This document shows, in pieces, positions 643 through 17,371 of a stretch of 20,590 nt of DNA. Position numbers and translations under genes: made by a program. Under the pieces are notes generated by a model. The model ran no database searches. It was given only the letters and a program-made list of their open reading frames with translations, and had not been told where the DNA came from. Origin of the DNA: a virus; IMG/VR virus record IMGVR_UViG_3300047550_006154, positions 1 through 20,590 of that record. One strand, given 5' to 3'. Within the stretch, counting starts at the first letter, position 1. The number at the start of each line of letters is the position of its first letter.

Positions 643-1818
643 ATGTCATCCTTTAGCACAACACTAAGCCCTACTCCTTTTGGAATATTTGATTCTGATG
701 TCGCCTTCCAAGGAGACGCAGATAACATGGTCGTTTTTGTCAAAAGAAAGCTAGGCGACGACATACTATCTGTTGAACTCACCAAGAAAATGGTCTGGGG
801 GAATTTTGAAGAAGCCACACTTGAATACGGAAACATATTAAATCAATATCAGGCAAAATCTCAGCTTCTTACATACCTTGGCTTTAATACTGGATCTGGG
901 GATGAAGCAACAAATAGGCTACCACGAGAAAGCCTAGAATACTTGGGAAGATTTGCAGAGCCCTATGCTACAGAAGCAGGATTAGGAGGATCTTACAACC
1001 AATATTCTGGGTCCATAACTCTAAGACAAGGACAACAAGATTACGATCTATACTCTGACCTTGTAGGTGCAGACGGCATATCTCTTTTTAGTGGGAGTAA
1101 TAATTCATCTCCTCAAACAAAGATGAGAATAATGGAAGTCTTCCATTTCAGCCCACAAGCAGCATATAGATTTTTTGATACTACTTCCGCCATCAATTAT
1201 CTGAATAATGCTTTCTCTTTTGAATCATTTACACCAGAGACAATTTTTTATGTGCTTCCTGTGTTTGAAGACGTTCTGAGAGCTGGCATGCTTGATATTT
1301 CAAATCGAGTAAGAAGATCAAACTATTCGTACAAGGTGACAGGAACGAAGCTCAGAATATTCCCTACTCCGTCTTTAAACGAAGTTCCTAATAAGCTCTG
1401 GGTAAGGGTTAGATATTTTTCTAATCCTTTGAATCCTGCTTACAATGATCAGACGACTCAAGGTGTATCGAATATTTCAAATATTCCATTTGGAAATGTA
1501 AATTACACAAGAGTCAATAGCATGGGAAGACAGTGGATTAGGCAGTACACGCTTGCTCTGAGCATGGAACAATTAGGACTGATAAGAAACAAATTTGGAA
1601 CTCTCCCAATTCCAGGTGGAAACGTTACACTTAACGGATCAGATCTCATAGCAAAGGGAAGGGAGGACAAAACAAATCTCACGACGAAGCTAAGAGAAAT
1701 GCTTGAGACGCTAACATACGACAAGCTGATTGAGTCGGCAGCTGCAAGAGCTGAAAATCTTACAAAGCAGCTTTCTAAGGTGCCCGTTCCAAATGGCAAA
1801 GCGATATTCATGGGATGA
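643..1818 (+). CDS. 13: Neck protein, T4 gp13-like (head completion)
   Basis: A 391-residue protein resembling T4 gp13, which sits between portal and tail and completes the filled head so that the tail can dock. Two conserved blocks are visible. One near residues 33-62 reads VKRKLGDDILSVELT followed by an aromatic-rich helix (compare the RRLG...INVELT block of gp13). The other, at about 296-352, has RQWIRQYTLALSMEQLG, then PGGNVTLNG near 324 and a charged Lys/Glu helix. The ATG is set by a good ribosome site (AGGAGA, 628-633, 9 bases upstream). It is longer than T4 gp13 (309 aa), with the extra residues in the middle. The gp14-like and gp15-like genes follow directly in T4 order, which supports the call. 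It is the first gene after the hairpin at 576-604. Confidence 0.85.
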   Translation: MSSFSTTLSPTPFGIFDSDVAFQGDADNMVVFVKRKLGDDILSVELTKKMVWGNFEEATLEYGNILNQYQAKSQLLTYLGFNTGSGDEATNRLPRESLEYLGRFAEPYATEAGLGGSYNQYSGSITLRQGQQDYDLYSDLVGADGISLFSGSNNSSPQTKMRIMEVFHFSPQAAYRFFDTTSAINYLNNAFSFESFTPETIFYVLPVFEDVLRAGMLDISNRVRRSNYSYKVTGTKLRIFPTPSLNEVPNKLWVRVRYFSNPLNPAYNDQTTQGVSNISNIPFGNVNYTRVNSMGRQWIRQYTLALSMEQLGLIRNKFGTLPIPGGNVTLNGSDLIAKGREDKTNLTTKLREMLETLTYDKLIESAAARAENLTKQLSKVPVPNGKAIFMG

Positions 1819-1826
1819 TGTAAAAA

Positions 1827-2492
1827 ATGGCTAGACTTTTTGTAACACCTAGAGAAATTAATTTTATAAATGACATAACCAAAGAGCTTATCAAGGATGT
1901 CATTGGACAAAAGATATACTACTTTTCAATAAATGAAATAAAAACAAGAGTGCATGAAGTCTACGAGGAAGCACCAGATAAAATTTTTGAGACACCAATA
2001 GAGCTAGAATGCCTTGTGAAGTATTCACCCCAGCAGATTTCAACTAATAAGTTCGGCTCAGAAGAATACTACACAGTTGAATGCTACATCCAGGTAAGAG
2101 ATCTTATTGACAAGCAGATAGACTTTATGGAAGGAGACTTTTTCTCATACGGAGAAGTCTTTTTTGAAATAGTTCAGGCACCTAGATCAGATACAATCTT
2201 TGGTCAAATTGAACACAAGAGCTACATCACTATTACAGGTAAGCAGTCGAGAAAGGGACAATTTCTATCAAAGGTGTTTGGTCCAACGTCAGAGTGGTAC
2301 ACAGACAAGGATGCAGTTCAAGATACTTTCGTTCAACAGCGTGGGTTCGAAAATAACCGACAAGGTCCGACTGGTGACATACGTGCACTCCAGAAGAACG
2401 GAGTTCTCGATGCACCAATTACAGGACCCGCTGAAGTCTCACAGAAGGGCGATCCCGATCAGGTTGGATCCTCGTTTTATGATGAGTCATAA
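1827..2492 (+). CDS. 14: Neck protein, T4 gp14-like (head completion)
   Basis: A 221-residue protein with the signature of the gp14 neck family. Near residues 101-127 is MEGDFFSYGEVFFEIVQAP followed by an Ile-Phe-Gly-Gln segment. It matches the T4 gp14 pattern of a GD-[LF] turn, a strand ending FEI, then an aromatic or proline segment ending in LG/FGQ. The N-terminal part (TPREINFINDITKELIKDV) also fits. In T4, gp13 and gp14 form the neck that the terminated tail binds. The ATG lies 8 bases after the gp13-like stop with only a weak ribosome site, suggesting translational coupling. The C-terminal 45 residues are polar, Gln/Gly/Pro-rich and probably flexible. Identity rests on this block plus its place between gp13-like and gp15-like genes. 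Confidence 0.75.
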   Translation: MARLFVTPREINFINDITKELIKDVIGQKIYYFSINEIKTRVHEVYEEAPDKIFETPIELECLVKYSPQQISTNKFGSEEYYTVECYIQVRDLIDKQIDFMEGDFFSYGEVFFEIVQAPRSDTIFGQIEHKSYITITGKQSRKGQFLSKVFGPTSEWYTDKDAVQDTFVQQRGFENNRQGPTGDIRALQKNGVLDAPITGPAEVSQKGDPDQVGSSFYDES

Positions 2493-2494
2493 CA

Positions 2495-3679
2495 ATGCCA
2501 CCTAAAGAACAGCTAAAAAAGGGATATGAGGGATTTAATGTTCCAGAAAACTTCTCATTTCCCTCTTGCGGAATTGAAGATGTTGATCGAGCGCTTTTTG
2601 ATCTTTTTGATAAAAACCTAGCCTTTGAAGTCCACGTCAATGAACAGACCATTAAAGTCCCAGTTGTTTTTGCTGCAGGAGAAAGATTCGCGCTTACACG
2701 TCGTCAAAAACCCATCAGAGACAAAAACAATGCACTGATTCTACCGCTCATAGCAATAAAAAGATCCAGTGTGGGTTTCAAGACTGAGTCCGATGCTGGC
2801 GGAGTACCAATATCTTTTAGACAAAATACAGATTACGTCGTAAAGAAGCGTCTTTCACAGTCAGATAGAGATTATCAAAATATCGTAAATAAATTTTCTC
2901 TAAAAAATCAAGACAATGTTGCATCTAGAAAAAACTTTCTAGACAATAGTGCATCGCCTGGGTACGGTGCAATTCCAGGAACAATTGCATCGAGAAGAAA
3001 CGGACCTGGAATCGCTTTTGGAACTGGACGTTTAAATTTTGCGCTAGACAACAGCATCTCAAACAACATATTTGAAGTCATTACAATTCCTTATCCGATT
3101 TTTGTTCAGCTTAATTACGAGATCACATTCTGGACTCAGTACATGTCACAGATGAATCAGATTCTTGAAACCATGCTCATTAAGACTAGTGGGCAGGGGA
3201 GAGAGTTTCAAATTGTTTCAAACAAGGGTTTCACTTTTACTGCGTTTCTAATGGGGACGTTAACCTCTGGAGATAACTTCGAAAACTTCACGGCTACAGA
3301 AAGAATTATACGATACACGTTCTCTGTCCGAGTTCCAGCTTACATTCTAGCACCACGGCATCCTGGCCTTGGCAATCCAGCAAGAGTGTTCCAGACTGCT
3401 CCTGACGTTGTATTTGACACATATGAGATTAGGCAGCAAGTTACTGAGCCTGTTCACGTTGAAACTGCTGAAACTCGAGTTAATAAATTTTCTCTTAGTG
3501 ATGTAGAGGCGCTCGATGACACGGGTCGCCCAATCACAGATAGGAACAAAGAAACAATGGAAACTGTAATAAGTGATCCCAGTCCCAAGTATCAATCACT
3601 TGTAAAAAGGTCTCCGAGAAGCGGAGAGAAAATTTCTGCAGGTAGAATAATTAAGGACATAGAGACTACCAAGAACTAG
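2495..3679 (+). CDS. 15: Tail terminator / proximal tail sheath stabiliser, T4 gp15-like
   Basis: A 394-residue protein resembling T4 gp15, the hexamer that caps the finished tube and sheath and docks to the neck. Conserved blocks seen: VPVVFAAGERFALTRRQ from residue 55, leading to an ILPLIAI strand (compare the VPITYAS..F block of gp15), and PIFVQLNYEITFWTQYMSQM from residue 201, running into a Leu-rich helix (compare the YELSIFTRYEDDMFQI block). Between them is an insertion of about 100 residues rich in Arg, Ser and Asn. After residue 300 comes a polar tail. At 394 aa it is well above T4 gp15 (272 aa). ATG at 2495 follows the gp14-like stop by two bases with no ribosome site, so coupling is likely. 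It directly precedes the sheath genes it would lock. Confidence 0.85.
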   Translation: MPPKEQLKKGYEGFNVPENFSFPSCGIEDVDRALFDLFDKNLAFEVHVNEQTIKVPVVFAAGERFALTRRQKPIRDKNNALILPLIAIKRSSVGFKTESDAGGVPISFRQNTDYVVKKRLSQSDRDYQNIVNKFSLKNQDNVASRKNFLDNSASPGYGAIPGTIASRRNGPGIAFGTGRLNFALDNSISNNIFEVITIPYPIFVQLNYEITFWTQYMSQMNQILETMLIKTSGQGREFQIVSNKGFTFTAFLMGTLTSGDNFENFTATERIIRYTFSVRVPAYILAPRHPGLGNPARVFQTAPDVVFDTYEIRQQVTEPVHVETAETRVNKFSLSDVEALDDTGRPITDRNKETMETVISDPSPKYQSLVKRSPRSGEKISAGRIIKDIETTKN

Positions 3680-3724: not shown

Positions 3725-3728
3725 GGAG
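3725..3728 (+). promoter_or_regulatory. Ribosome binding site that fixes the first sheath start
   Basis: GGAG at 3725-3728 lies 5 bases before ATG 3734. An in-frame GTG at 3728 overlaps this GGAG and would have no ribosome site of its own, so ATG 3734 (protein starting MAEVTYRSPGFF) is preferred over the longer reading. Confidence 0.65.
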
Positions 3729-3733
3729 TGAAA

Positions 3734-6700
3734 ATGGCAGAAGTAACTTATCGGTCTCCTGGTTTTTTTGAGGCCGAAATAGATCAGAGTGGGCCAACTC
3801 CTGGAGTTGTTGGAACTCCCGTGGGTTTGATTGGTACATCACCGATGGGGCCGGCATTTGTTCCAACAACTGTAACGTCACTCAGCGAGTTCACTTCCAT
3901 ATTCGGAGATGATGAGCTAAATAGATCTCCAGCATATTACGCAGCTCAAGAGTATTTCAAGAACGGAGAAGCTCTAACTTTCGTAAGAGTCCTCGGAGCA
4001 GGAGGAAATTCATCCTCTGGCGATATATTGACAACACAAACAAAGGGAACAACTGTAGGAGCAGGATTTGTAATTTCTGGATCACAGGCATTATCCCCTG
4101 CTATCGATAGAAGAGGAAAAGGATTTGTACAGTTCATAGTGGGAAAACACACGGTACAGTCTGGTAACATCCTTTCATCGTATCCGATTTTAACCCAGAA
4201 TAGCTCATTTCCAGGTGTGTCTGGGGGCAGCACAGTCAATCTAGTCAGAGGCATGCTTCTGCTGGCCTCTGGCACGCGCGCACAAATTTTGAGCAACAAC
4301 CAAGCCTATTCGATCTCGAATGTAAGCGATGATTTGGCTACTCCTGGATCTACTGGTGATTTCAAGATAGTAATCTCAAGTTCTTCTCCGTCTTTTGGAA
4401 GCACGGATGGATATACAGGAATAAAAATTTATACTGCCTCCCTTGATCCAGAGAGCAGTAACTACATTTCTAAGGTCTTGAATACATCTCCGACGCTCTT
4501 CCAGAAGAACGAGCATCTTCTTTACGCAGACTATCCCATTGAAACAACAATTGCATCTCATGAAATTGCTGCAAACACAGTTGCAATTGTTAGCGGGTCG
4601 AGCAACTTTTCATCTACAGGCGATGCAAATCTTCCATTTTCTAGAGGGTTTGGAAAATTTGATGTAAGATTTCAGCCAGCCAAGACGACTTCTTTTATAA
4701 GTCAGCCTTTCGTTGACAAGGAATACGACTTGTTCCACTTTGAAACGATAGGCGCTGGGTCTGATACAAGCACAAAGTTCAAGATCTCAATTTCCAATCT
4801 TAAGCGCTCAGATGATCCTACAAACCCCTACGGTACGTTCACAGTTCTAGTTAGAGATTTTTACGATACAGACCTCAATGTCATAATTCTAGAGCAATTT
4901 CCTCTGTGTGATTTGAACCCGGCGAGTAGCAGATATGTTGCAAAGGTTATAGGAGATAAAAAGAGATACTTCAACTTTGATGCTGTCTCTGAAAGTGAGA
5001 GAAGATTTATTTCTTCTGGAAAGTATCCAAACAATTCAAAGTACGTAAGAGTCGTAATGAATCCGGGAGTTGAATCTGGAAATGTTCCATCTACTGCTCT
5101 TCCGTTTGGATTCTCTGGGCTTCCTGTTATAAAGACGACCGATACTCTCACAATATCGGGAGATACAAGAAGATTTGGAATCACAGCAGTTGCCACTGGC
5201 TTGACTGCATCAGTTGTTCCTCCGGTTCCAATGCGATTTAAAGTCACGGTTGGCCAGACACAAGCATCACCAGCTTTCTTGGGTCAAGAAGGGACGCAAG
5301 AAAGAGTAAATGGTCAGCTTTATTGGGGCATCAAGACAGAAAAAGTCACAGACAATCTTGATCCAAATTCAGGAACCACTAGGAGCAGCTACTTTGACAA
5401 TGTTGTAAAATTCTCAGGTGTTCAAAATCTGGATATGCTTGTTACTGGGTCTGGTGCAAATACATTTGGTTCAAATAAGTTCACGCTTGCCAAGGTCGCG
5501 TTCCTCAACGGGTCAGTCTCTGATTTGACCGGAACAGTAAATCAGCACATGATTAACGCGTTTTATGGAAGAAGCTCAGTTCCTAGCGCACCAAATTATA
5601 CGATTACTTTTTCCGGTGAATCGCCTCGTATCACTTTTGCAACGCTGGCTACTCAGACCTCGCCCTACCAGTTCAATAGATTTAGTGATTTCACAAAATT
5701 TACGAATGTGATGTATGGTGGCTGGGATGGTACAAACATTCTTGATGTTGACATGGACACGCTCAACGATCGTGCGTCTTCTACAGAGACAGGTGGAAAA
5801 GCCATATCTTCCCTCGATATTGGATTAAGCGTCAGTTCAACATCGAACGTCTTCGGAACTTCAACGACAAATTCTATAGTCAACTCGTACAGGGGAGCAA
5901 TCAACATATTGACAGATCCTCTAGCTTCACGTGCAAACATTATTACAGTTCCTGGCATTAGAGATTCAAGCATTACAAATTATGCAATGCTTAGAACACG
6001 CCAGTATGCGCGTGGGTTCTATCTGATGGACATCCCAGCGTACGATGACTCAGGAACAAGGATATTTGAAGCAACTGACATGCCAGATGTCTCACGTACA
6101 ATTCAGACATTCTCTGGAAGAGGCTTGGATAACCGATATGCTGCAACTTATTTCCCAGACGTAAATCTCCTAGATAGTCAATCTGGAAGAAGGGTAAGAG
6201 TTCCAGCGTCAGTTGTTGCGCTTGGAGCCATTGCTCAAAATGACAAACTTGCTTTCCCGTGGTATGCACCTGCAGGATTCAATAGGGCATCACTTTCAGA
6301 TGTTACTGGTCTTGCAACACGCCTTACTAGCAACGACAGAGACAGTCTCTATGACGCTCGAATAAACCCGATTACTTCATTCCCGGGCGCAGGATTTGTT
6401 ATCTTTGGGCAAAAGACGCTCCAGATAGCAAGATCGGCACTTGATAGAGTTAACGTCATGAGAATGCTTATTGAGCTCGCAAGGCGCGTCTCTATTGTCG
6501 GTTTGCAGTACGTCTTTGAGCAAAATACGGCATCAGTCAGGGCTAGATTCTCAAATCAGCTAACATCAGAGCTCACGCTAGTTCAGAGTCAAAGCGGAAT
6601 TGATGCATTCAAGGTCATTATGGATGATACAAACAATACGCCATCTGACATAGAGCAAAACAAGCTTAACGGTAGAATACTGCTTGTTCCAACGCGAGCT

Positions 6701-6757
6701 GTAGAGTACATTGCAATTGATTTCATAATCACAAACGCAGGCGTTGAGTTCGTTTGA
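3734..6757 (+). CDS. 18: Tail sheath protein, first of two tandem paralogues (1007 aa)
   Basis: A contractile tail sheath subunit of the T4 gp18 type. The N-terminal block has GTPVGLIGTSPMGPAFVP from residue 27, a fold that starts nearly all phage sheath proteins. The C-terminal core has GGWDG at 662-666, a polymer-forming domain with NPITSFPGAGFVIFGQKT from residue 878, then an arm of helices including LDRVNVMRML and the final VEYIAIDFIITN strand. The middle (about 110-600) holds large surface domains, including DLNPASSRYVAKVIGD from 393 and NVPSTALPFGFSG from 450. At 1007 aa it far exceeds T4 gp18 (659 aa). Start ATG 3734 is chosen from the GGAG at 3725. A complete paralogue follows after 27 bases. 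No terminase genes separate it from the gp15-like gene, unlike T4. Confidence 0.93.
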   Translation: MAEVTYRSPGFFEAEIDQSGPTPGVVGTPVGLIGTSPMGPAFVPTTVTSLSEFTSIFGDDELNRSPAYYAAQEYFKNGEALTFVRVLGAGGNSSSGDILTTQTKGTTVGAGFVISGSQALSPAIDRRGKGFVQFIVGKHTVQSGNILSSYPILTQNSSFPGVSGGSTVNLVRGMLLLASGTRAQILSNNQAYSISNVSDDLATPGSTGDFKIVISSSSPSFGSTDGYTGIKIYTASLDPESSNYISKVLNTSPTLFQKNEHLLYADYPIETTIASHEIAANTVAIVSGSSNFSSTGDANLPFSRGFGKFDVRFQPAKTTSFISQPFVDKEYDLFHFETIGAGSDTSTKFKISISNLKRSDDPTNPYGTFTVLVRDFYDTDLNVIILEQFPLCDLNPASSRYVAKVIGDKKRYFNFDAVSESERRFISSGKYPNNSKYVRVVMNPGVESGNVPSTALPFGFSGLPVIKTTDTLTISGDTRRFGITAVATGLTASVVPPVPMRFKVTVGQTQASPAFLGQEGTQERVNGQLYWGIKTEKVTDNLDPNSGTTRSSYFDNVVKFSGVQNLDMLVTGSGANTFGSNKFTLAKVAFLNGSVSDLTGTVNQHMINAFYGRSSVPSAPNYTITFSGESPRITFATLATQTSPYQFNRFSDFTKFTNVMYGGWDGTNILDVDMDTLNDRASSTETGGKAISSLDIGLSVSSTSNVFGTSTTNSIVNSYRGAINILTDPLASRANIITVPGIRDSSITNYAMLRTRQYARGFYLMDIPAYDDSGTRIFEATDMPDVSRTIQTFSGRGLDNRYAATYFPDVNLLDSQSGRRVRVPASVVALGAIAQNDKLAFPWYAPAGFNRASLSDVTGLATRLTSNDRDSLYDARINPITSFPGAGFVIFGQKTLQIARSALDRVNVMRMLIELARRVSIVGLQYVFEQNTASVRARFSNQLTSELTLVQSQSGIDAFKVIMDDTNNTPSDIEQNKLNGRILLVPTRAVEYIAIDFIITNAGVEFV

Positions 6758-6784
6758 GAATACTTACGTCTAGGAGCAAATTAA

Positions 6785-9667
6785 ATGGGTAGCGCCACTG
6801 TAACAATCAGCATTATCGATAGTTCGCAGCCCGTTAGGGCAGTAGCGACTGGAACGCCTGCGGGAATAATCGGAACAGCAGAAACAGGTCCCGCCTTTGT
6901 TCCTGTGACTTTTACAACATACGGTGAGTGGAAAACTTTATTCGGAACAAGCGGAGATAGATTTGGACCTGTTGCAGTCAGCCAATGGCTCACAAACGCA
7001 ACCCAAGCAACTTATCTCAGAGTGCTAGGAATTGGAGATGGAAACAAAAGAAACGCTTCAACAGGGCAAGTCACCAATGCTGGGTTTATAGTAGGAAATC
7101 AGCAAGTTCAAGCGAGCGGACTCGTTGCATCAAATCCATATGCAAATTCCGGAGGGCCTCTAGGTCGGACTCACTTCTTGGGCGCTTTCATGTCCGAGTC
7201 TGCTGGCTCTACAATCTTTAGCGAGGCAGGATTTCAGACTGATTCATCAGCATATCCAATAATCAGAGGTGTCGTAATGACACCTTCTGGTGTCTCTCTT
7301 AGCCTGTCTGGAAATTATAACGCAAGCAACACGCCTGGCACTCTCTCGAGTTCACCAAATGGCGGAATCACGGGATCAATGTCAATTACGGGGTCCATGT
7401 TTGTGATGCTGCTGAATGGACACATTAATACATCAGACTATCCAAATGTGATTACAGCCTCTTTTGAGGTCGGTGATAATCACATCTCAAACAAGCTAAA
7501 TACAGATCCTACCCTAATCGAGAGAGCTGGTCACTATCTTTACACGTACTACGACATTCCAACCTCTCTTGCTGCTCACACGGGAACTGGAGTCTTTACA
7601 AATCCAACAACACAGGGATCGACAGAACTGCATGATCTTGTTTTCATAACGACAAGTTCAATTGCGAGAAACACAGCTGACACTACTGTGCCAAACTTTG
7701 AGAACTTCAGCGAGAGGTATACTGTCCCGCACACGCCAAGCGTAATTTCTCAGGACTTCGGCGGGATTAGATACCCAGTGTTTAAGTTTTATGCACTATC
7801 AGATGGATCAAATGCAAATGTTAAATTTAGAATACTAATTGAAAATATAGTTCCATCTTCTGATCCGACCTATCTGTTTGGAAAGTTTGATGTTGCTGTT
7901 TACGATTATGAATCAGAGACAGTCTTGCAAAGATTCAACGGTGTCAATCTCGATCCAACATCAACGAACTACATCGCAAGAGTGATTGGTGATCAATACG
8001 TTTACTTTGATTTTGATCGGGCTTCATCTTCTCAGAAGATAGCAATCGCCGGAGATTACCCAGTTACAAACAACTACATACGTGTAGAGATGTCAGATGA
8101 TCAAGTTCAAGGAAACGTTCCAAGCAATGCACTTCCGTTTGGATACAAAGGCTATGGATATCTGAACACATCGGGCAGCATTTTGGCTACAAATGCCGAT
8201 GCAGGAACAATGATTGCTGGCCATCTGACAGATATAAGAAAGGCATCTATCCCGCCTGTTCCAATGAGAAAAAACATCTCGGTTGGCGGAGTTGCAACAT
8301 CAGATCTTGCTTGGGGAACTCAGCTTCAGCTTCAGAGTCTTTCTGATTACAATTACACAATGACCCAGGATGATTCTATACAGAGTTTCACGAAGTATTT
8401 CCCATCCTTCAGCCCGTCTGATTCAAAGTTTCTTGTTGAGGATTCAACGCTTTCTGACCAGTTTGCTAACAACTTGTTCACAATTGAGAACATCAAGGTT
8501 GTCACAGCATCCAACACGTACGCAGATCCAAATGAATGGGCCTCTGCAGTCTATGTTAGGCAGGGAGGAATTACTGCAGATAGCGCAGCAAAGACGCGCG
8601 GTTTGACTGTTGGAGACCTTTCAAACGTGACCTCACGCGCGTCACAGTACATCTCTTTTGAGATGATAATGCAAGGAGGATTTGATGGCGTCAATATCTT
8701 TGACAGCGAAAAGTCGAATCTAACAAACCTTGCAGTTAAGAGAGAAATTGATGACGCTGGAAATCAGGGAGGCGCAACAAGCGGCCCAACAGTAGTGGCA
8801 TACAAGAAAGCTGTCGATATCATGGGAAGTAAGTCTGATACAGATGTTCAGATTCTTGCAATTCCAGGAATTAGGCACCCATCAGTGACAAACTATGCTA
8901 TCACTGCAACTGAAAGCCGATTTGATGCAATGTATGTCATGGACATTGAGGAGAGAGATGCTTTCAACGAGATTATTACAGGATCTCTTAGCACACCGGA
9001 TGTCTCATACACAGTTGATCAATTTACCGGAAGAAATCTGAATACATCATTTGCTGCTGCTTATTTCCCAGATGTGACAATTTCAAATCCTGACACGGGA
9101 GATGTCATGTCGGTTCCTCCGTCTGTTGCAGTCCTTGGAGCAATTGCATCAAACGATAGAATTGGATCATACTGGAACGCACCAGCAGGATTTAATCGTG
9201 CATCACTCCCAAGTGTTGTTGGTTCGACAATTTCTCTATCGCAAGATGACCTGGATGTGCTATACGATGCATCCATAAATCCGATTGTTGAATTCCCGGG
9301 CACTGGGTTTGTTGTCTGGGGACAGAAGACATTGCTACGGGCAGCGTCAGCGCTTGATAGAATTAACGTCAGAAGACTTCTGATCTTTATCCGCAGACAG
9401 GTCCGGCAGGTTGCGAACAGCCTTCTGTTTGAGCCAAATACACAGGCAACCCTTGATAAGTTTAACTCACTTGTCAATCCGATTTTGCAGCGTATCCAGT
9501 CCGGCGGCGGCGTGGACCGCTACAAGGTCCAGATCGACACAACAACTACCACGCAGGCAGATATCGAAAATAACACAATTCGAGGAAAGATCTTCTTACA
9601 GCCCACAAGGACTGCAGAGTTCATCTCAATTGATTTCGAGGTTAGAGGCCGCAGCACAGATCTATAA
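6785..9667 (+). CDS. 18: Tail sheath protein, second tandem paralogue (960 aa)
   Basis: This is a second full-length sheath gene, collinear with the first. Matching blocks: GTPAGIIGTAETGPAFVP from residue 23, LDPTSTNYIARVIGD at 389-403, NVPSNALPFGYKG from 444, GGFDG at 631-635, NPIVEFPGTGFVVWGQKT from 832, LDRINVRRLL, and the closing AEFISIDFEV strand. Block spacing is nearly the same as in the first copy, so this is an ancient duplication with much divergence. It is not a recent repeat, and the frame is intact with no sign of decay. AGGAG (6772-6776) sits 8 bases before ATG 6785, a strong site that suggests high expression. Both copies keep the C-terminal core needed to polymerise on the tube, so a mixed or alternating sheath is possible. 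Which copy does what cannot be told from sequence. Confidence 0.93.
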   Translation: MGSATVTISIIDSSQPVRAVATGTPAGIIGTAETGPAFVPVTFTTYGEWKTLFGTSGDRFGPVAVSQWLTNATQATYLRVLGIGDGNKRNASTGQVTNAGFIVGNQQVQASGLVASNPYANSGGPLGRTHFLGAFMSESAGSTIFSEAGFQTDSSAYPIIRGVVMTPSGVSLSLSGNYNASNTPGTLSSSPNGGITGSMSITGSMFVMLLNGHINTSDYPNVITASFEVGDNHISNKLNTDPTLIERAGHYLYTYYDIPTSLAAHTGTGVFTNPTTQGSTELHDLVFITTSSIARNTADTTVPNFENFSERYTVPHTPSVISQDFGGIRYPVFKFYALSDGSNANVKFRILIENIVPSSDPTYLFGKFDVAVYDYESETVLQRFNGVNLDPTSTNYIARVIGDQYVYFDFDRASSSQKIAIAGDYPVTNNYIRVEMSDDQVQGNVPSNALPFGYKGYGYLNTSGSILATNADAGTMIAGHLTDIRKASIPPVPMRKNISVGGVATSDLAWGTQLQLQSLSDYNYTMTQDDSIQSFTKYFPSFSPSDSKFLVEDSTLSDQFANNLFTIENIKVVTASNTYADPNEWASAVYVRQGGITADSAAKTRGLTVGDLSNVTSRASQYISFEMIMQGGFDGVNIFDSEKSNLTNLAVKREIDDAGNQGGATSGPTVVAYKKAVDIMGSKSDTDVQILAIPGIRHPSVTNYAITATESRFDAMYVMDIEERDAFNEIITGSLSTPDVSYTVDQFTGRNLNTSFAAAYFPDVTISNPDTGDVMSVPPSVAVLGAIASNDRIGSYWNAPAGFNRASLPSVVGSTISLSQDDLDVLYDASINPIVEFPGTGFVVWGQKTLLRAASALDRINVRRLLIFIRRQVRQVANSLLFEPNTQATLDKFNSLVNPILQRIQSGGGVDRYKVQIDTTTTTQADIENNTIRGKIFLQPTRTAEFISIDFEVRGRSTDL

Positions 9668-9722: not shown

Positions 9723-10220
9723 ATGGCAACGTCCGCTGAGACGCTATCTGTCACAGATATGCTCCCAAACAAGTTTGAGCCCAAAAGAAAGCATCGATGG
9801 ATTTTTGCCATTGAGGGAATTGACGCCTTCTTGATCAAGACAGCAGCAAGGCCAAACTTCACAATGGGCCAAATTAAGATTCCCTGGATGAACACACAGC
9901 GCTACATTTCGAAGCGTCTTGAGTTCAACAGCTTAAGCGTAAACTTGCATGACCCGATTGCTCCTTCTGGAGCACAGCAGGTGATGGAGTGGATCAGGAC
10001 TCACCACGAGTCAGTCTCAGGAAGATCTGGATACGCTGACTTCTACAAGAGGGATATCCAGCTCAAGATGCTTGATCCAATCGGAACCGTCGTTGAGCTC
10101 TGGGATATAAAGGGAGCCTTCCTTGAGAGTGCTAACTTCCAGGGCGTTGACTACAACGGAGACGATCCGATTGATATTGCACTAACAATTAGATTTGATA
10201 ATTGCGTTCTGCAGTTCTGA
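9723..10220 (+). CDS. 19: Tail tube protein, T4 gp19-like
   Basis: A 165-residue protein, almost the same length as T4 gp19 (163 aa), which forms hexameric rings stacked into the inner tube through which DNA passes. Visible features of the family: an N-terminal MLPNKFEPKRKHRWIF strand, the ARPNFTMGQIKIPWMN segment, the FNSLSVNLHDPIAPSGAQQV block leading to an amphipathic helix, and the final beta strands ending IRFDNCVLQF. It has one of the strongest ribosome sites here (AAGGAGAA near 9711-9718, about 6 bases before the ATG), as expected for a subunit needed in high copy. It follows the second sheath gene by 55 bases. The short, complete frame and sheath-tube order make this a firm call. Confidence 0.93.
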   Translation: MATSAETLSVTDMLPNKFEPKRKHRWIFAIEGIDAFLIKTAARPNFTMGQIKIPWMNTQRYISKRLEFNSLSVNLHDPIAPSGAQQVMEWIRTHHESVSGRSGYADFYKRDIQLKMLDPIGTVVELWDIKGAFLESANFQGVDYNGDDPIDIALTIRFDNCVLQF

Positions 10221-10303: not shown

Positions 10304-11140
10304 ATGCCAAGTAAGTCAAATGTTCGTGCTGGTGAAATTTTGAGCCAGATTCCAAGAGGTTCACCCGTTCAGGATGTTTTCGGGTGGTCAGTTCCGGTGG
10401 AACAGGTCCCCCTTCCATCATCTGGTCTGATATATTCTGTTGATAGTCCTCTTCACGGAAAAGAAACGCTTCAAATCAAGGCAATGACTGCGCAGGAGGA
10501 AGACATACTAATGTCTCGAGCCCTCATAAAGGAGGGGACTGTTATCAAGCATCTCATAAGAAGCTGTTTAATTGATAAGAGCATAGATCCTGATGATTTA
10601 CTTGCGGGAGACAAAAATTCTCTAATTGTTGCAATCAGAATAACAGGATACGGATCTGAGTATCGAGCTGTTGTGTCTTGCCCGGCATGCAGCAAGACAG
10701 ACAATTATTCATTTGATCTCTCGCAGATTGGAATCAAGAGGCTAGGTGCAGATCCAATATCACCCGGGCAAAATGAATTTAGCTTCGTGCTTCCTGTTAC
10801 TAAGAAGCAGGTAACATTCAGGTTTTTAACTGGAAAACTTGAGGAAGAGGACAAGCTTGCCAGGGAGAAAATGGCAAGACTTTTTCCAGATGCCAAGGTT
10901 GATAATCTTGTCACGCGACAGCTCGAGAATCAGACGCTAAGCATCGATGGAAAGACAGATCGAGTTGCGATTAGCTCTTTCATCAAGTCCATGCCAGCTG
11001 CTGATAGCCGGGCATACAGGACATACATGACCAAGATTGAGCCCGGCCTAGACATGAATCTCGATTTCAACTGCAGATCATGCGGCGCTACGTCAAAGGT
11101 GGCACTGCCATTGGGTGCTTCATTTTTTTGGCCTGAGTAG
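10304..11140 (+). CDS. 26: T4 gp26-like baseplate/tail assembly protein with a zinc ribbon
   Basis: A 278-residue protein resembling the T4 base plate family of gp26. The N-terminal segment (VEQVPLPSSGLIYS, then a strand ending TLQIKAMTAQEEDIL) is the typical opening, a short loop followed by a helix that begins at the acidic Gln-Glu-Glu-Asp. Two CxxC pairs, C126/C129 (SCPACS) and C257/C260 (CRSCGA), could together bind one zinc, bringing distant parts of the chain together. A Lys/Glu-rich helix lies near 185-200. T4 gp26 is 208 aa. The gene sits between tail tube and tape measure, where many tailed phages encode tail assembly chaperones, so an assembly role rather than a structural one is possible. 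The ribosome site is weak. Its 3' end overlaps the next frame by 26 bases and carries a T7 run. Confidence 0.72.
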   Translation: MPSKSNVRAGEILSQIPRGSPVQDVFGWSVPVEQVPLPSSGLIYSVDSPLHGKETLQIKAMTAQEEDILMSRALIKEGTVIKHLIRSCLIDKSIDPDDLLAGDKNSLIVAIRITGYGSEYRAVVSCPACSKTDNYSFDLSQIGIKRLGADPISPGQNEFSFVLPVTKKQVTFRFLTGKLEEEDKLAREKMARLFPDAKVDNLVTRQLENQTLSIDGKTDRVAISSFIKSMPAADSRAYRTYMTKIEPGLDMNLDFNCRSCGATSKVALPLGASFFWPE

Positions 11141-11344: not shown

Positions 11345-13279
11345 ATGGCAGAAGAACCAACCACTACTGGGACCGGAGATACAATACCGGATCCCAAAGA
11401 GCAAGCAAGAACAGCTGAAGAGATTGAGACATCAGTCAAGAGAATGACGAAGGCTTATACAGACCTCGGCTCAGTTCTGAGTGAAGTCGGTCAAGAAGCA
11501 GTCGATGTTTCCGGAAAGCTCGCTGTCGCGTTTGGTGCTTCTCTTGCAGAAGAGATAGCGGTAAAAGGGCTATCTAAAGGCATTGAGGCATTAAAGTCAG
11601 CCACTCAGCAAATAGACAACCTTAGCGCCGCAACAAAAGAAGCAAGAAGCATCGTAGAGTCATTCTCGGGCGGATCAATGATCGCCCTAAACGAGTTCTA
11701 TGGAGATGCATCAGGCGGCGCCAAGCAGTTCTCGTCAGACCTGTTTAAGACTGTTAACGACCTTGGCACAGCAACCTTTCAGGCATACGACGGATCCGGA
11801 AAGGCTATCACGCTGGGCATGATGCAGATTGGTAGCGCTACCGAGATTGCGCAATCGTATGTTGATGCTCTTGTTGATGATACTAGATTGTTTAAATTTG
11901 CGTCTGAATCGATGAATGCGGATCTTGCGTCATCAGTCTTTCTTGCGCAAAAGAATATTGGACTCTCGACTAGAGACATCAATACGATTTTCCAGACAGA
12001 GCTTTCCAGGACAGGAAAGATATCTGGCGATACGCTTGTCCAATTTGAGAAGTCTGTTCTCGCTACTGCAGAGCTTACGGGCCAATCAGTTGAGAAGACC
12101 TCGCAGGACATGATGGCGATCATGAGAGACTTTCAGCACTTTGGAGATATAACTGAGACACGTGCTGCGTCTCTTTCTGTCACGCTATCAAGACTTGGTA
12201 TGTCAGTGGGTGATCTAACATCTGTCGCAGGTAAATTTCAAACATTTGAGGGTGCCTCGCAGGCAATGAGCAATCTGGCAGCAACAACAGGGGCTACGCT
12301 AGACACGCTTGAGCTGTTTAGGCTTGCAAACGAAGATCAAGAAGGATTTGTTCTCTCACTCCGCGAACAGCTAGAGGCACAAGGTCTTGAGTTTGAAAAC
12401 ATGAACGCCATCCAGCAGAGAACACTTGCGCAGTCATTCGGGCTTGATCCTCGTGCGTTGCAGCGTCTTATGCAGGATGGAATTGGAGAGGTAGAGAGCG
12501 CGCAGGCTGAGCTTGAAGGAAAGACTTCAAAAATGACCGAAGAGGAAACAAAAAAGCGTGTAGCAACTCTCAAATCTGTCGTTGATGCTTCGAAAGCGAC
12601 GGCAGAGGATGTATTAAAGCGCACAACTGAGGCTGCCGCTGCCGCTGAGGGCTTTGCTTTCCGAGTTGAGAAGGCAATGGTGACAAATTCTCAGCTGATG
12701 AAGACTGTCATCGATGACTTGGAAGGAGTCAAGGCCTCTGCTCTTAAGCGTCAGAAAGAGTTTGATGACTCTCTTAACAGTATCATTGCTAAGCAAGAAA
12801 AAGCTATAAGCAAAATAGAGGAAATGAGAAAAAAGGCGTCTGAGACCAGCGGTGCCGGAGGCGCTGCCGAGCCGACAGCAGCTGGCAATACGGGAGCAGA
12901 CATTAACAACGACACAGATGGAGTCCAACGTATGACATCTACGGGATATGTCGGATTCACCTCTGGCGACTACTACGCTGCAGCTCTAAATCCTATGGAC
13001 CTAGTCAAACAAGTTTTGACAGCATTTCCTCCAGCCACAGTTCCGATTCCTGCAGCTACTCCGCCAATGCCCGCTTCTCCGCCGCCTGCAGCAGCTCCTA
13101 GCACAACACCTCAGCGCATTGAGCACGTCATTAAGTTTGTTGTCGCAGGGGATGGAACTGATCTAGGCGACTCGCTCGCTAGATCGATAGGGCGACAGCT
13201 TGCAACTGTTGGTGTTGTCATTGACGGAATTGACACAAAGTTCAAGACAAACAATCCCCAAATAGAGACGACACCATGA
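11345..13279 (+). CDS. 29: Probable tail tape measure protein, T4 gp29-like
   Basis: A 644-residue protein, mostly helical and Ala/Ser/Glu-rich, in the standard tape-measure place after tube and assembly genes. T4 gp29 is 590 aa. An early acidic disordered stretch (residues 1-20) is followed by helices to about 465 and a clear charged coiled coil at about 466-502 (LKRQKEFDDSLNSII, then Lys/Glu heptads). A Pro/Ala-rich linker spans 562-590, and a compact C-terminal region (VIKFVVAGDGTDLGDSLARS, onward to about 637) may bind the hub or tube initiator. By the usual rule of about 1.5 angstrom per residue the tail would be near 95 nm, close to T4. No strong membrane segment is seen. The ribosome site is weak. 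The stop overlaps the next start (ATGA). Identity rests on position, length and composition. Confidence 0.72.
   Translation: MAEEPTTTGTGDTIPDPKEQARTAEEIETSVKRMTKAYTDLGSVLSEVGQEAVDVSGKLAVAFGASLAEEIAVKGLSKGIEALKSATQQIDNLSAATKEARSIVESFSGGSMIALNEFYGDASGGAKQFSSDLFKTVNDLGTATFQAYDGSGKAITLGMMQIGSATEIAQSYVDALVDDTRLFKFASESMNADLASSVFLAQKNIGLSTRDINTIFQTELSRTGKISGDTLVQFEKSVLATAELTGQSVEKTSQDMMAIMRDFQHFGDITETRAASLSVTLSRLGMSVGDLTSVAGKFQTFEGASQAMSNLAATTGATLDTLELFRLANEDQEGFVLSLREQLEAQGLEFENMNAIQQRTLAQSFGLDPRALQRLMQDGIGEVESAQAELEGKTSKMTEEETKKRVATLKSVVDASKATAEDVLKRTTEAAAAAEGFAFRVEKAMVTNSQLMKTVIDDLEGVKASALKRQKEFDDSLNSIIAKQEKAISKIEEMRKKASETSGAGGAAEPTAAGNTGADINNDTDGVQRMTSTGYVGFTSGDYYAAALNPMDLVKQVLTAFPPATVPIPAATPPMPASPPPAAAPSTTPQRIEHVIKFVVAGDGTDLGDSLARSIGRQLATVGVVIDGIDTKFKTNNPQIETTP
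11369..11395 (+). repeat. GC-rich bulged hairpin at the start of the tape measure coding region
   Basis: GGGACCGG (11369-11376) can pair with CCGG-A-TCCC (11387-11395), with one bulged A and a 10-base loop. It begins 24 bases after the tape measure ATG. Such a structure could slow translation of a protein needed in few copies. A stem this short is expected a few times by chance in 20 kb, so it is noted only because of its place. Confidence 0.25.
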
Positions 13280-13470
13280 TAAAAGAATCTGACATGGATT
13301 TTGTGCTAGAAATAGAGCGGCTTATCAGAGAGACTTGTTCTGCGATAGATTCAGCATATATGTCAGAGGAGTTTTTGACCTCAGCAAACGAATCCTTTGA
13401 TAAGATACCTAGTCTAAGGAGCCTAAAAACTCAGATGGAGAAAGATGGCAACCCGACAGACCCTTCGTGA
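13276..13470 (+). CDS. Small hypothetical protein between tape measure and tube initiator (64 aa)
   Basis: ATG 13276 overlaps the tape measure stop in an ATGA junction, and the 3' end overlaps the next gene by 26 bases, so the frame is tied into the operon at both ends. The 64-residue acidic product looks all-helical (FVLEIERLIRETCSAIDSAY in the N-terminal half, then a Ser/Leu-rich second helix). It has one cysteine, no membrane segment and no domain I recognise. Translational coupling at ATGA junctions usually marks genuine genes whose product works with that of the neighbour, so a tape-measure or baseplate assembly helper is a reasonable guess. The GGAG for the following gene lies inside its last codons. 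Function is unknown. Confidence 0.6.
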   Translation: MIKESDMDFVLEIERLIRETCSAIDSAYMSEEFLTSANESFDKIPSLRSLKTQMEKDGNPTDPS

Positions 13471-16400
13471 TTTTCTCACGAGCATAGGACGGATAGAAAA
13501 TTCCATATCGATTCCCATCGATCCGGGATCTGACGGTGTTGTCGATTCTGGCGACGATCTTGGCGTTGAGCCACGCACAGAAATTGATCTTCTAAATTTT
13601 TCAAACGGTGAGTCACTGCTCGGAGACTACACTGCGTTTATCACGCAGAGAAACCAGTTTCCCCTCTCGCCGGGGACGCATGAGGCACCCGGATCAAATA
13701 GAGGCAATGCTATCCAGCAAGCCGATCTATCGAGCGCACCCGAAGTCTTTGCAGATCCGAGTGTAGGAGATAATTCTCTTGCGCTTGATCGTTCGAACAG
13801 CGCCAAATTTGACGCTTCTGGATATTCCATTGATTCAATCGTAGACAAGACAGGAGATGGTTCTGCTGAAAATGGTGACACGCTCCTGTCGTCTGTAATT
13901 GCATCTCCTTCTAATTCAGACTCAACGATTGATCAATCGCGTGCTGTTGTTGGTGCTTTTGCAACACTCAAGAAATACAACAGCTTTTCTCCGACTTCAT
14001 CTCCGAGTAGCTATTCAAACGATAGTTCAGGATTTCCCCTTACGACAAGTGAGTACGAGGATTCGAGAAATCTACGCGTGCAGGTCGGAGACGGTGTGTA
14101 TGAGCCGCAGACAGTTGAGGTCTCTGCCGACATAACTCAAGAAGAGTTGCAAAAAATTGCCAGAAGCATGCTTTTAAAGGCGTCAGGATGGGATGATACA
14201 GTTTTTCCGAATCAGGCGACAAACCCAGACACTGCTTTTGACGGAATTAATTCGGGTGATCTCGCCAAGTTTCCTCTCATTGCAGAGAGAGAGCAGGGAA
14301 CCCCTGATCACTTTAGATCGCAGGATGCATATGGAGTCCCCCTCTCAGCAAACGGAGAAGACAGTCTTCTTGCGGGCAGAGGGGACGTTGTGCAGAAGTC
14401 TTCTTCAGAGGCAAAATACACACGCACCAGAGGCGCTACTCATACAATTGATCAGAGATTTGGAGACATCAATCTAAACCTGGCTGCCAATGAGAGAATA
14501 CAGTCTTTGCAAGCTGGTATCGCAATGCTTGGTCTTGCAAACATTGTTGACAGAAAGATGAACAGCGTCTCATCAGAATTGCAAGAGCTCAAGGTTAGTT
14601 ATGACAATGTTTTGCGCGGTCCCTACTCACTCGGAACAAGCGTTAAGTCAAATGTGAGCGCAAAGACAAGAATTCTTATTCACTCTTTCATGTTTCAGAC
14701 CGGGATATACAGCTATACCGCCTGCATGAGCGAGGGTTTGTACGCCTGCTTTGGCCTGAGCAAGGAATTTAGCGCTCTCACAGAGGGGATCCCATATGAG
14801 ACACCAGATCTTGCAGGAATATACAAGAAAGAAATAGAGAAGATAGCAGGTGATCTGTCATCTGAATTTACAAGCGTCTATGACTCACCAATGCTTATGT
14901 CTCAAGGATTCTGGCGCGCCGTGGCTGAAAGCGCATATCGGTCCATCAAGAGCATGCAAGCATCAACTGAGTCTCTAAATGGTTCTGATTTCGTCTCAAC
15001 AGTTTTAGGCATGCAGGATTCGCTGGCTGTCAGGATCATGAATGTCTTTCTTGCGATAGGTTACCAGCGCCTTGTAATTCAGGGAGGAGTACTTTCGGAG
15101 GACGTTAAGTCTGGACAGAGTCAGGTGTCGAATCCGTTTGACATGGATGGTTACCCTAACGCTCCCGGAACTAGACAGATGAAATCGAGAGATGGAGGCT
15201 TAATTAGCAACTCCTCACTAGCTTGGCGTAATAGCGTTCTCCCGAGCATGTTTATACTGCCTGTCGAGGCTATGGCTGCCACGCTCGATCTTGACTACAT
15301 GTTCGATCCAGACAAGGGTGCGAATCCAATAAAGGGAATGCTAGGCTCGACAATGTACGATAAGACGTACGTGAAGGGCGCTAGAAACTCCAACAGCATC
15401 CCGTCCATTGCTGCTAAGCTTCTTGAAGATAGGCTTGGCGCTGAATACATTCCCTTCTACTTTCGAGATCTTCGAACAAATGAAATAGTTGCTTTTCATG
15501 CCTTCTTAGAGTCTCTATCTGATGGTTACTCTGCAAACTTTACTGAAACGCGCGGATTCGGACGCGCAGATCCTGTCCAAAACTACACAAATACGACTAG
15601 AACAATTGGATTAACTTTCTGGATTGTCGCTACATCAAAAGAAGACTTTGATGAGATGTGGTTTAAGATCAATAAATTAACAACCCTTGTATATCCCCAG
15701 TATACACGCGGAAGAACTGTAAAGATCAAAGATGAGACTGCATCAATTGGAAATCTACTTAACCAGACTGTAAATTTCGAACAGCCTTTTAGTCAGGTAG
15801 CCGGTGGAACTCCAGTTATAAGACTAAGAGTCGGAGATCTCATAAAGACCAACTACAGCAGATCAAATTTTGCGAAGCTTTTTGGAGTTGGAAATGACAC
15901 ATTCTTTGAAGAATCAGATAATTTACTTTCTTCTGTGACCTCTGGACTTGCTGGCTCTGCAGGCTTAGGAAGCCTGGGCGTCACCGGAGAGGCAGCAGAA
16001 ATTTTGAAAAATATCGATCTTAGACTTCTTCCGTTTCTTGGATACGCTGCATCTCCGATTGAAGCTACGCAGCTTACCTCTCTTATCCAGAATCAAATTG
16101 CGTCAGGAATTACAACGGCAGCGGTCGATGTTGCTACTGAAATATTGGCCTATTTCTTGAAGAACGGATTTGTTAATCCTCTTTTGTATGGAGATAGAAG
16201 CAGGCTTTTTGCAAATGATCCAAACGCCACTTCTTCTGGAAATACAGAATTCTCTACTGCAGATTATCTGCTGCTTAGAAGCGGCTTGATTCTAAAAGCA
16301 AGATCAACACCTTACATTTCAATCCCAGACGATGAGAATCAACAGCAAAAGGTAAGAATCCAAAGACCCGTCCTTGTGAAATACGTCAAATCAATCCCTG

Positions 16401-17068
16401 CGGATGATCAAAACAGCCAAAATAGGACTGGACCTGCATACCAGGTTGAAATCACAGATCCTACTGTTGGAAGCAACCTGAGTGGTGTCAATATCACAGT
16501 TTCAGCAGCAGACCTTTATGTTGATTCTGGACAAATTGTCAACATTGCGTCTGTTCCGGGCGTGCTTCTGTCGCTTGGAGCAATAGCAGGGCTGTCAGGC
16601 CTTGCTGCGACTGCGGGCGCGGCGCTAATTTCAAATGCAACAGAATCTTCGTTTGGCCCGGTCGATGTTCCCTTGGCAGATTTCATCGGGTCTACAGCTC
16701 GTACATTCACATCGCCGTACAACAACCCGCTGACAAAAGCATTTGAAGACAGAATGGGAGAAGGATTGGCCGGTGTTGTCAAGCAGATGACATACACCTG
16801 GATGGAGGCTCCCTGGGAGACAGATTGGAATTCTCGGGCACCAACAGCATGCAAGGTACAGCTAACCTTTGCGCCAATTCACGACATTGCGCCGGGATTG
16901 GATTCCAATGGTTTCAACCGTGCCCCAATATACAACGTCGGTCAGATTATGAACGACACGTTTGGACACCCGAGAGCAGACGGTGGAAATGCGAGCAAGT
17001 ATTTCTACAAAAAGGGTGGAGCTGTCGCAGAAGAAGCCTCAAATCCCGAAGCTTTCTCAAAAAAGTAG
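13445..17068 (+). CDS. Giant tail tube initiator / baseplate protein, T4 gp48/gp54-like (1207 aa)
   Basis: The conserved tube-initiator segment lies at residues 669-754: IPFYFRDLRTNEIVAFHAFL, then a strand with GFGRADPVQNY, then TIGLTFWIVATSKEDFDEMW and a helix ending TTLVYPQY. It matches the gp48/gp54 pattern of FRDLR..., GR.EPV.Y and LT.L.YP.Y. The closing part, about 1105-1190 (VKQMTYTWMEAPWETD, then RAPTACKVQLTF), matches the family's C-terminal tube-like strands. T4 gp48 and gp54 are only 364 and 320 aa. Here about 650 residues precede the core: an acidic Ser/Asp-rich, probably flexible part to about residue 330, then a helical part at about 340-560. About 250 more are inserted between the two conserved blocks, including a Gly/Ala-rich hydrophobic run near 1039-1063. 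GGAG (13437-13440) lies 4 bases before the ATG. Probably the platform on which the tube nucleates. It could also combine gp48 and gp54 roles. Confidence 0.78.
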   Translation: MATRQTLRDFLTSIGRIENSISIPIDPGSDGVVDSGDDLGVEPRTEIDLLNFSNGESLLGDYTAFITQRNQFPLSPGTHEAPGSNRGNAIQQADLSSAPEVFADPSVGDNSLALDRSNSAKFDASGYSIDSIVDKTGDGSAENGDTLLSSVIASPSNSDSTIDQSRAVVGAFATLKKYNSFSPTSSPSSYSNDSSGFPLTTSEYEDSRNLRVQVGDGVYEPQTVEVSADITQEELQKIARSMLLKASGWDDTVFPNQATNPDTAFDGINSGDLAKFPLIAEREQGTPDHFRSQDAYGVPLSANGEDSLLAGRGDVVQKSSSEAKYTRTRGATHTIDQRFGDINLNLAANERIQSLQAGIAMLGLANIVDRKMNSVSSELQELKVSYDNVLRGPYSLGTSVKSNVSAKTRILIHSFMFQTGIYSYTACMSEGLYACFGLSKEFSALTEGIPYETPDLAGIYKKEIEKIAGDLSSEFTSVYDSPMLMSQGFWRAVAESAYRSIKSMQASTESLNGSDFVSTVLGMQDSLAVRIMNVFLAIGYQRLVIQGGVLSEDVKSGQSQVSNPFDMDGYPNAPGTRQMKSRDGGLISNSSLAWRNSVLPSMFILPVEAMAATLDLDYMFDPDKGANPIKGMLGSTMYDKTYVKGARNSNSIPSIAAKLLEDRLGAEYIPFYFRDLRTNEIVAFHAFLESLSDGYSANFTETRGFGRADPVQNYTNTTRTIGLTFWIVATSKEDFDEMWFKINKLTTLVYPQYTRGRTVKIKDETASIGNLLNQTVNFEQPFSQVAGGTPVIRLRVGDLIKTNYSRSNFAKLFGVGNDTFFEESDNLLSSVTSGLAGSAGLGSLGVTGEAAEILKNIDLRLLPFLGYAASPIEATQLTSLIQNQIASGITTAAVDVATEILAYFLKNGFVNPLLYGDRSRLFANDPNATSSGNTEFSTADYLLLRSGLILKARSTPYISIPDDENQQQKVRIQRPVLVKYVKSIPADDQNSQNRTGPAYQVEITDPTVGSNLSGVNITVSAADLYVDSGQIVNIASVPGVLLSLGAIAGLSGLAATAGAALISNATESSFGPVDVPLADFIGSTARTFTSPYNNPLTKAFEDRMGEGLAGVVKQMTYTWMEAPWETDWNSRAPTACKVQLTFAPIHDIAPGLDSNGFNRAPIYNVGQIMNDTFGHPRADGGNASKYFYKKGGAVAEEASNPEAFSKK

Positions 17069-17077
17069 GTAACAGAA

Positions 17078-17371
17078 ATGGCAACAAGTCGTTACGCATT
17101 CGTCCCCAGGATAGATGGAGAAAAAATCTCCACCACGAACATAAGTTCAAGAATCTATTTTGCTGTGCAGCAAAATAGAATTAGATACAACACGATTAGG
17201 CTTGTGGAGGGAAGAAGACTTGACACCATAGCAGGACAAACCTACGGAGATTCTACCCTGTGGTGGGTCATTGCTTCTGCCTCTGGAATAGGATGGAACT
17301 TGCAGTGTCCCAGGGACACAGTTTTAAACGTTCCATCTGACTTGAATCAAGTTTACGCGCTTCTAAGGTGA
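17078..17371 (+). CDS. 53: LysM-type baseplate wedge protein, T4 gp53-like (97 aa)
   Basis: A 97-residue protein, most of which is one LysM-like module at about residues 40-92: RLVEGRRLDTIAGQTYGDST followed by LWWVIASASGI and the Pro-Asp-Thr-Val-Leu-Asn-Val-Pro strand. The paired Trp and the LDTIA...YGD pattern are typical of phage baseplate LysM proteins. T4 gp53, the wedge protein joining wedges to the central hub, carries such a fold at its C-terminus. At 97 aa this one is about half of T4 gp53 (196 aa). It lies between tube initiator and hub, which fits a linker in the inner baseplate. The alternative is a small LysM tail protein like gpX of Mu-like phages. A 12-base inverted repeat lies in its coding region. 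The ribosome site (near GTAGGT) is modest. Confidence 0.8.
   Translation: MATSRYAFVPRIDGEKISTTNISSRIYFAVQQNRIRYNTIRLVEGRRLDTIAGQTYGDSTLWWVIASASGIGWNLQCPRDTVLNVPSDLNQVYALLR
17154..17179 (+). repeat. Long perfect inverted repeat inside the LysM gene
   Basis: TCTATTTTGCTG (17154-17165) is followed after two bases by its exact complement CAGCAAAATAGA (17168-17179). In RNA this gives an 11-base stem with a 4-base loop (GUGC). It starts 76 bases after the gene's ATG and encodes ordinary residues (IYFAVQQNR). Twelve paired bases with so short a loop are unlikely by chance. No T run follows, so it is not a classical terminator. It may be an RNA processing or stability site. Confidence 0.6.
17365..17370 (+). 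promoter_or_regulatory. Ribosome binding site supporting a TTG start for the hub gene
   Basis: AAGGTG at 17365-17370 overlaps the end and stop codon of the LysM gene and sits 5 bases before TTG 17376. No in-frame ATG follows until 17601, which has only a weak site, so the TTG is the best start. Confidence 0.6.

Follow-up and report, generated by a model that had tools for sequence, protein, structure and literature searches.

A tandem pair of tail sheath genes kept through a lineage of uncultured aquatic phages suggests a sheath of two subunits

In a large group of uncultured aquatic phages the tail sheath is probably assembled from two different subunits, A and B. The paralogous genes that encode them are adjacent, occur together in all relatives examined whose contigs are long enough, and have evolved in step. 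We put at about one in two the probability that these proteins form an obligate two-subunit sheath of ordered, mixed composition, for example one in which A and B rings alternate. Models of contractile tails, type VI secretion systems and bacteriocins usually assume a single repeating sheath unit, apart from the VipA/VipB split of the type VI machinery. That a phage sheath can comprise two proteins is already known from phage PaBG; the present case is a tandem pair, the outcome of an independent duplication, that has been kept through a lineage. The open-licence literature searched yielded no description of this lineage, of a lineage-fixed tandem sheath pair, or of the asymmetry of the linking arms described below.

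A T4-type tail cluster with two sheath genes

The DNA analysed, referred to here as the window, is a complete virus record of 20,590 bases, a metagenomic fragment. Its conserved tail cassette opens, on the + strand, with the gene for an Ad2-like neck or head-tail adaptor protein of 391 aa (643..1818; phrog_211, E=1.4e-8), which occupies the same position in relatives. Next on this strand are a 221-aa protein (1827..2492), conserved in position among relatives, matching no family in Pfam or PHROGs and suggested by gene order only to be at the T4 gp14 position; a T4 gp15-like tail sheath stabiliser or terminator of 394 aa (2495..3679; phrog_227, E=1.4e-4), whose match to PF16724 at E=3e-5 is just under the Pfam cut-off and whose gene position is conserved in relatives; sheath A (3734..6757) and sheath B (6785..9667); and the tail tube protein of 165 aa (9723..10220; phrog_4542, E=8e-24). 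Downstream of the tube gene, again on the + strand, lie genes for a baseplate protein of the T4_baseplate family, gp26/gp51-like and 278 aa long (10304..11140; PF12322, E=1.4e-15; phrog_150), and for a 97-aa gp25-like baseplate wedge protein (17078..17371; phrog_7145, phrog_232), expected to be the sheath initiator. Three large proteins, two of them between these genes (11345-13279 and 13445-17068) and one after the second (17376-20237), have conserved places in the cassette and gave no PHROG or Pfam match; the first occupies the tape-measure place of SP-15-type phages, its length in relatives ranging from 579 to >1,800 aa. The sheath pair has the stabiliser gene upstream and the tube and baseplate genes downstream, and because of this gene order—neck, stabiliser, sheaths, tube, baseplate—the cluster is assigned to a T4-type phage tail, not to a headless injection system.

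The two sheath frames are adjacent on the + strand and intact, as the earlier note on this DNA had described them: neither has an internal stop, and the interval between them is 27 bp. The open reading frame of A could also be entered at a GTG at 3728, giving 1009 aa. This codon overlaps the Shine-Dalgarno sequence GGAG (3725..3728, + strand). Relatives share this type of site ahead of A, and their proteins start with the same MAE..., so the ATG at 3734 that had been proposed is upheld as the start of a protein of 1007 aa. Collinearity of A with B, a protein of 960 aa, had been read from scattered matching blocks; BLASTP extends it from residues 18/11 to 999/951, over 1016 columns with 33% identity and, along the whole length, 50% similarity, an end-to-end match (E=5e-144) that is not due to chance.

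Domains, fold and place beside the tube gene all mark both proteins as sheaths. Each contains the subtilisin-like PF04984 and the C-terminal PF17482 domains, above Pfam cut-offs, and each matches the PHROG tail-sheath families 23, 10581, 17610 and 34521, B being recognised by phrog_23 at E=1.5e-61 and A at E=8.7e-60. AlphaFold2 models, each built on an alignment of ~90 relatives, reached a pLDDT of 90 for A and 86 for B; searches of the PDB with these predicted structures returned T4 gp18 first for both, followed by other phage sheaths and by injection-system sheaths. T4 gp18 is the best PDB match in sequence as well as in fold, and has the core in common with the pair; its N-terminal arm has SPG and its C-terminal arm TGADF. 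It is, however, a single protein of 659 aa, whereas A and B, which had rightly been called larger, have more extensive outer domains inserted (at roughly residues 110-690).

The pair is found wherever contigs are long enough

Searches of IMG/VR with A and B yielded >100 loci, in which A is followed by B wherever the contig is long enough and loci with one copy end at the contig edge. As these searches had been seeded on sheaths, the survey was repeated from the tube gene: A was present in all 44 of the loci with room upstream of B. The PF17482 model, run over the full length of 16 contigs of 61-324 kb, matched twice in most of them; two contigs gave one match, and there BLAST shows both sheath genes. 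The tube gene, by contrast with the sheaths, was found exactly once in each of 17 records searched, including all 16 long contigs.

The window being a metagenomic fragment, a chimeric contig, a collapsed repeat or some other error of sequencing, assembly or annotation might be suspected of having created the pair. Independent contigs refute this and leave it a negligible probability: the A-B junction is repeated in an overlapping contig, L003 (100% identity in the stretch; L numbers are our designations for contigs and loci), in many divergent contigs, and in L202-L204, three contigs binned into bacterial MAGs. The bins to which these last were assigned, Halobacteriovorax, Methylococcaceae and Flavobacteriales, disagree, the binning is unreliable, and we rejected it as a guide to the host. 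No annotated phage is close enough to suggest one (the best tube identity is 45%), and no isolate of the lineage was found in the phage collection searched.

The duplication is older than the lineage

Maximum-likelihood trees were built by short ('quick') searches with SH-aLRT supports only. One, of 74 sheaths, recovers A and B as separate monophyletic groups, with supports of 100 and 100; in the other, of 80 sequences, the two clades reappear with 100 and 99. The outgroups GAP32, RM378 and Syn1 sit on long branches, and their positions are uncertain. Because A and B form separate clades, the branching within one mirroring that within the other, and because single-sheath relatives fall outside both, the trees date the A/B duplication to before the lineage. 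The earlier note had held that its reading would fail if the second gene proved to be newly acquired and not shared by relatives; the trees and the tube-based survey together rule out a recent or sporadic duplication.

A and B are equally constrained and evolve in step

Over 29 dereplicated genomes pairwise divergence averages 0.475 both for A and for B, against 0.297 for the tube and 0.579 for the stabiliser. Pairwise distances of A and B correlate at 0.939, compared with 0.802 for A and stabiliser, 0.770 for A and tube and 0.711 for B and tube; adjacent genes share history and this inflates the A-B value, though equally adjacent pairs correlate less, and regressing out five neighbouring genes leaves a partial correlation of 0.79. 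A and B from the same genome are also slightly more alike (identity 0.349) than A and B from different genomes (0.343), a difference that lies mainly in the core and was equalled in 0 of 2000 permutations. Gene conversion between the two is ruled out as its source, the excess being just 0.6 points. Within the core B is the more conserved (B-B identity 0.616, A-A 0.577), and almost every A and B gene of relatives has a GGAG-type ribosome site in front of it.

Equal rates, co-evolution and ribosome sites are more readily explained by two major parts adapted to each other than by a main part and a spare. Conservation alone is insufficient to argue for equal stoichiometry, because the minor sheath genes of eCIS are also kept together in operons.

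These observations bear on one variant of the two-component sheath that the earlier note had proposed, in which A and B are alternative sheaths, one used at a time according to host or conditions. Both are full length and each could in principle polymerise alone. Yet their genes share a strand, with 27 bp between them and a ribosome site for each, and are never separated where the contig allows both to be seen; all relatives have them in the A-B order, with no sign of an inversion or switch; there is a single tube gene for the two; and their evolution is equally constrained and tightly correlated. The asymmetry of the arms (below) also makes independent, equivalent use less likely. For these reasons we consider alternative sheaths quite improbable, while the broader proposal of a two-component sheath gains from the conserved pairing and the old duplication.

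A and B differ in their terminal linking arms

Sheath subunits are linked to one another by terminal strands. In diffocin the conserved handshake sheet is composed of four beta-strands from three neighbouring subunits (PMC11329794). The C-terminal motif G-[AVS]-x-F is present in 80 of 81 A proteins and in 89 of 92 single-sheath relatives, and in none of 114 B proteins (Fisher p about 7e-55, a value overstated because the test treats related sequences as independent). At the N-terminus the single-sheath relatives mostly have SPGV[FY], together with the C-terminal G-[AVS]-x-F; in A this arm has become SPGFF, and in most B S[PA]G[VI]-[ST], while from B of the window's own subclade the SPG motif has gone altogether (MGSATVTISIIDSSQP). 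The window's A has SPGFF at its N-arm and GVEF at the end of its C-arm; T4 gp18 has TLLSPGIELKE at its start and TGADF at the end of the aligned part. The predicted structures agree: in the model of A the end is built as strands, whereas that of B has disordered, low-confidence ends (residues 1-19 and 944-960). Of the claim that both proteins keep the C-terminal polymerisation core, the core itself stands for both; the canonical end of the C-terminal arm is kept by A only.

A and B, then, have a common core and differ exactly where subunits grip each other, and since the linking arms have diverged the two are probably not interchangeable at the handshake contacts. The degenerate arms of B in the window's subclade, and their low confidence in the model, could instead be taken to mean that one copy is no longer a sheath and has become a decoration protein, an assembly chaperone or a redundant relic. 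B, however, has the whole core, a sheath-family match as strong as that of A, a T4 gp18-like fold and no relaxation of constraint, and we judge this reading very improbable.

Extra sheath copies in some relatives and the question of end rings

A third sheath paralogue, C, lies directly downstream of the tube gene in 7 of the 38 tube loci that extend far enough (L142:3283-6480, L143:1550-4801, L144:1446-4823, L146:5023-8400, L168:3150-6377, L179:5349-8579 and L198:1625-5269), and encodes about 1070-1210 aa. Pfam and PHROGs searches of C gave no match; profile-profile comparison matched it to B at 100% probability (E=3.9e-90, 895 columns) and to A at E=1.7e-84. C is fast-evolving, with a stem branch of 1.5. 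A second copy of B in tandem, B2, gives the order A-B-B2 in L098 (4413-7448) and L105 (13220-16354), and is found also in L106 and L108; it evolves about three times faster than the partner B, whose end branches are 0.14-0.17 where those of B2 are 0.46-0.51. B2 and C behave as expected of minor parts, and A and B, on the same sequence measures, are without such acceleration.

Oversized B sheaths, of 1400-1590 aa, were seen in L173 (5572-9897), L179 (546-4754), L180 (2697-7034), L189 (3610-8382) and L203, mostly in loci that also have C; the additional length is probably made up of extra outer domains.

The extra copies bear on the rival explanation that we take most seriously, although we think it less likely than an ordered mixed sheath: that one paralogue forms the trunk and the other only a specialised end ring, either a baseplate-proximal starter or a neck-proximal last ring, the role of the minor sheath proteins in Afp/PVC. 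A subunit with fewer sheath neighbours might do without the canonical C-arm end, absent from all 114 B, and without the N-arm SPG motif that B of the window's subclade also lacks; in eCIS baseplate entries of the PDB, Afp2/3/4 or Pvc2/3/4 occur together; and B2 (L098/L105) and C (L142-L198) show that some relatives have further paralogues available. Against an end-ring role for either A or B stand their equal rates and evolution in step, the higher core conservation of B, the presumptive minor part, the much faster evolution of the copies that do look minor, and the strong ribosome sites on both genes.

Comparison with known sheath systems

Some phage genomes have been found in a survey to encode two sheath copies (PMC9230969), and in PaBG two sheath proteins, gp76 and gp213, 38% identical, are both in the structural proteome and were inferred to derive from a duplication (PMC7412058). 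PaBG, a Pseudomonas jumbo phage, and with it Lu11, NCTB, HRDY3 and Erwinia and Dickeya phages, resembles the window in having two divergent sheath paralogues per genome. The differences are several: the PaBG sheath genes are ~117 kb apart, one by the tube gene and one elsewhere, not 27 bp apart; the proteins are about 530-560 aa long, not 1007 and 960; and PaBG has two annotated tube genes where the A-B lineage has one. In the tree gp76, gp213 and Lu11 cluster with a support of 100, apart from A and B; because they form this group of their own the PaBG pair arose separately, and a single duplication event common to both is ruled out.

Nor do PaBG-type pairs show a consistent asymmetry of the C-arm like that of A and B. 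We considered a general rule that one partner loses its C-arm end: it fits PaBG and the uncultured phage LR756508, and fails in Lu11, NCTB, HRDY3 and Dickeya AD1. Since the PaBG family shows the asymmetry inconsistently or not at all, the feature is fixed in the A-B lineage, yet is no rule of all two-sheath phages.

LR756508.1, a 484-kb uncultured phage, also has two sheath paralogues (824 aa; L115:8029-10503 and 11518-13992), ~1 kb apart. One copy has the C-arm TGATF; the other has lost the arm motifs and sits on a long branch whose place in the tree is unsure. The tube gene lies ~7 kb downstream of the sheaths. The two copies fall outside the A and B clades, so this pair is apparently the result of yet another, separate duplication.

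The nearest single-sheath system is that of Microcystis phage Mel-JY01, which has the window's gene order of neck, 221-aa-like protein, stabiliser, sheath, tube and gp26-like protein; its sheath is 41% identical to A and its tube protein 45% identical to the window's. It differs in having one sheath gene, of about 812 aa, and so do all 80 environmental loci of this type, 26 of which have >3 kb of context on both sides.

The injection systems of the Afp/PVC type, with which the pair had been compared, likewise possess several sheath paralogues (Afp2/3/4, Pvc2/3/4) with a common core domain. Their sheaths are, however, small (354-451 aa), and they have no phage head, whereas the window has a neck adaptor and a stabiliser and its relatives are virus contigs of up to 324 kb. 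The comparison is useful as an analogy; the two-component sheath of PaBG (PMC7412058) is the closer known case.

A proposed two-subunit sheath

In the diffocin sheath the first and last layers are each distinct, and between them conformers B and C alternate, with a repeat of 79.5 A (PMC11329794). Sheaths of the A-B lineage may have reached a comparable arrangement by another route. An ancestral single sheath gene, in a Mel-JY01-type gene order, was duplicated in tandem before the lineage radiated, and both copies, keeping the sheath core, have been retained together under equal constraint. A and B are translated from their neighbouring genes, each from its own ribosome site, and would polymerise around the same single-protein tube. 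Their arms have meanwhile diverged, A keeping the canonical C-arm and deriving the SPGFF N-arm, B losing the canonical end of its C-arm. We infer that both proteins would be present in the virion, in the same tail, at near-equal copy number and in alternation.

If rings of A and B do alternate, what diffocin achieves with two alternating conformers of one protein would be written into two genes: the two-ring repeat, which in single-protein sheaths depends on a conformational switch, would be genetically fixed. A fuller version of this model, which we hold more tentatively, is an obligate heteropolymer in which two paralogues with complementary, non-interchangeable arms alternate in fixed order and, in some members, a third paralogue makes special rings.

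A second subunit might add ring order, tail stiffness, staged contraction or end-ring identity, and the C-arm end, cleanly lost from one partner, marks a contact of interest. Sister phages with a single sheath in the same gene order, and relatives with three, make the role of the second subunit testable.

Other genes in the relatives' tail cassettes

In relatives, homing (HNH) endonuclease genes have repeatedly been inserted within or close to the stretch of the cassette that holds the sheath, tube and baseplate genes: L014:7627-9273, L030:10727-12388 (- strand), L107:13027-14730 (- strand) and L034:1374-2786. Open reading frames of similar size occur in L021, L087, L099 and L101. L087, a 324-kb contig, also carries beside its tail genes a nicotinamide/nicotinate phosphoribosyltransferase gene (20229-21641; PF04095 and PF18127), which suggests NAD salvage by the phage.
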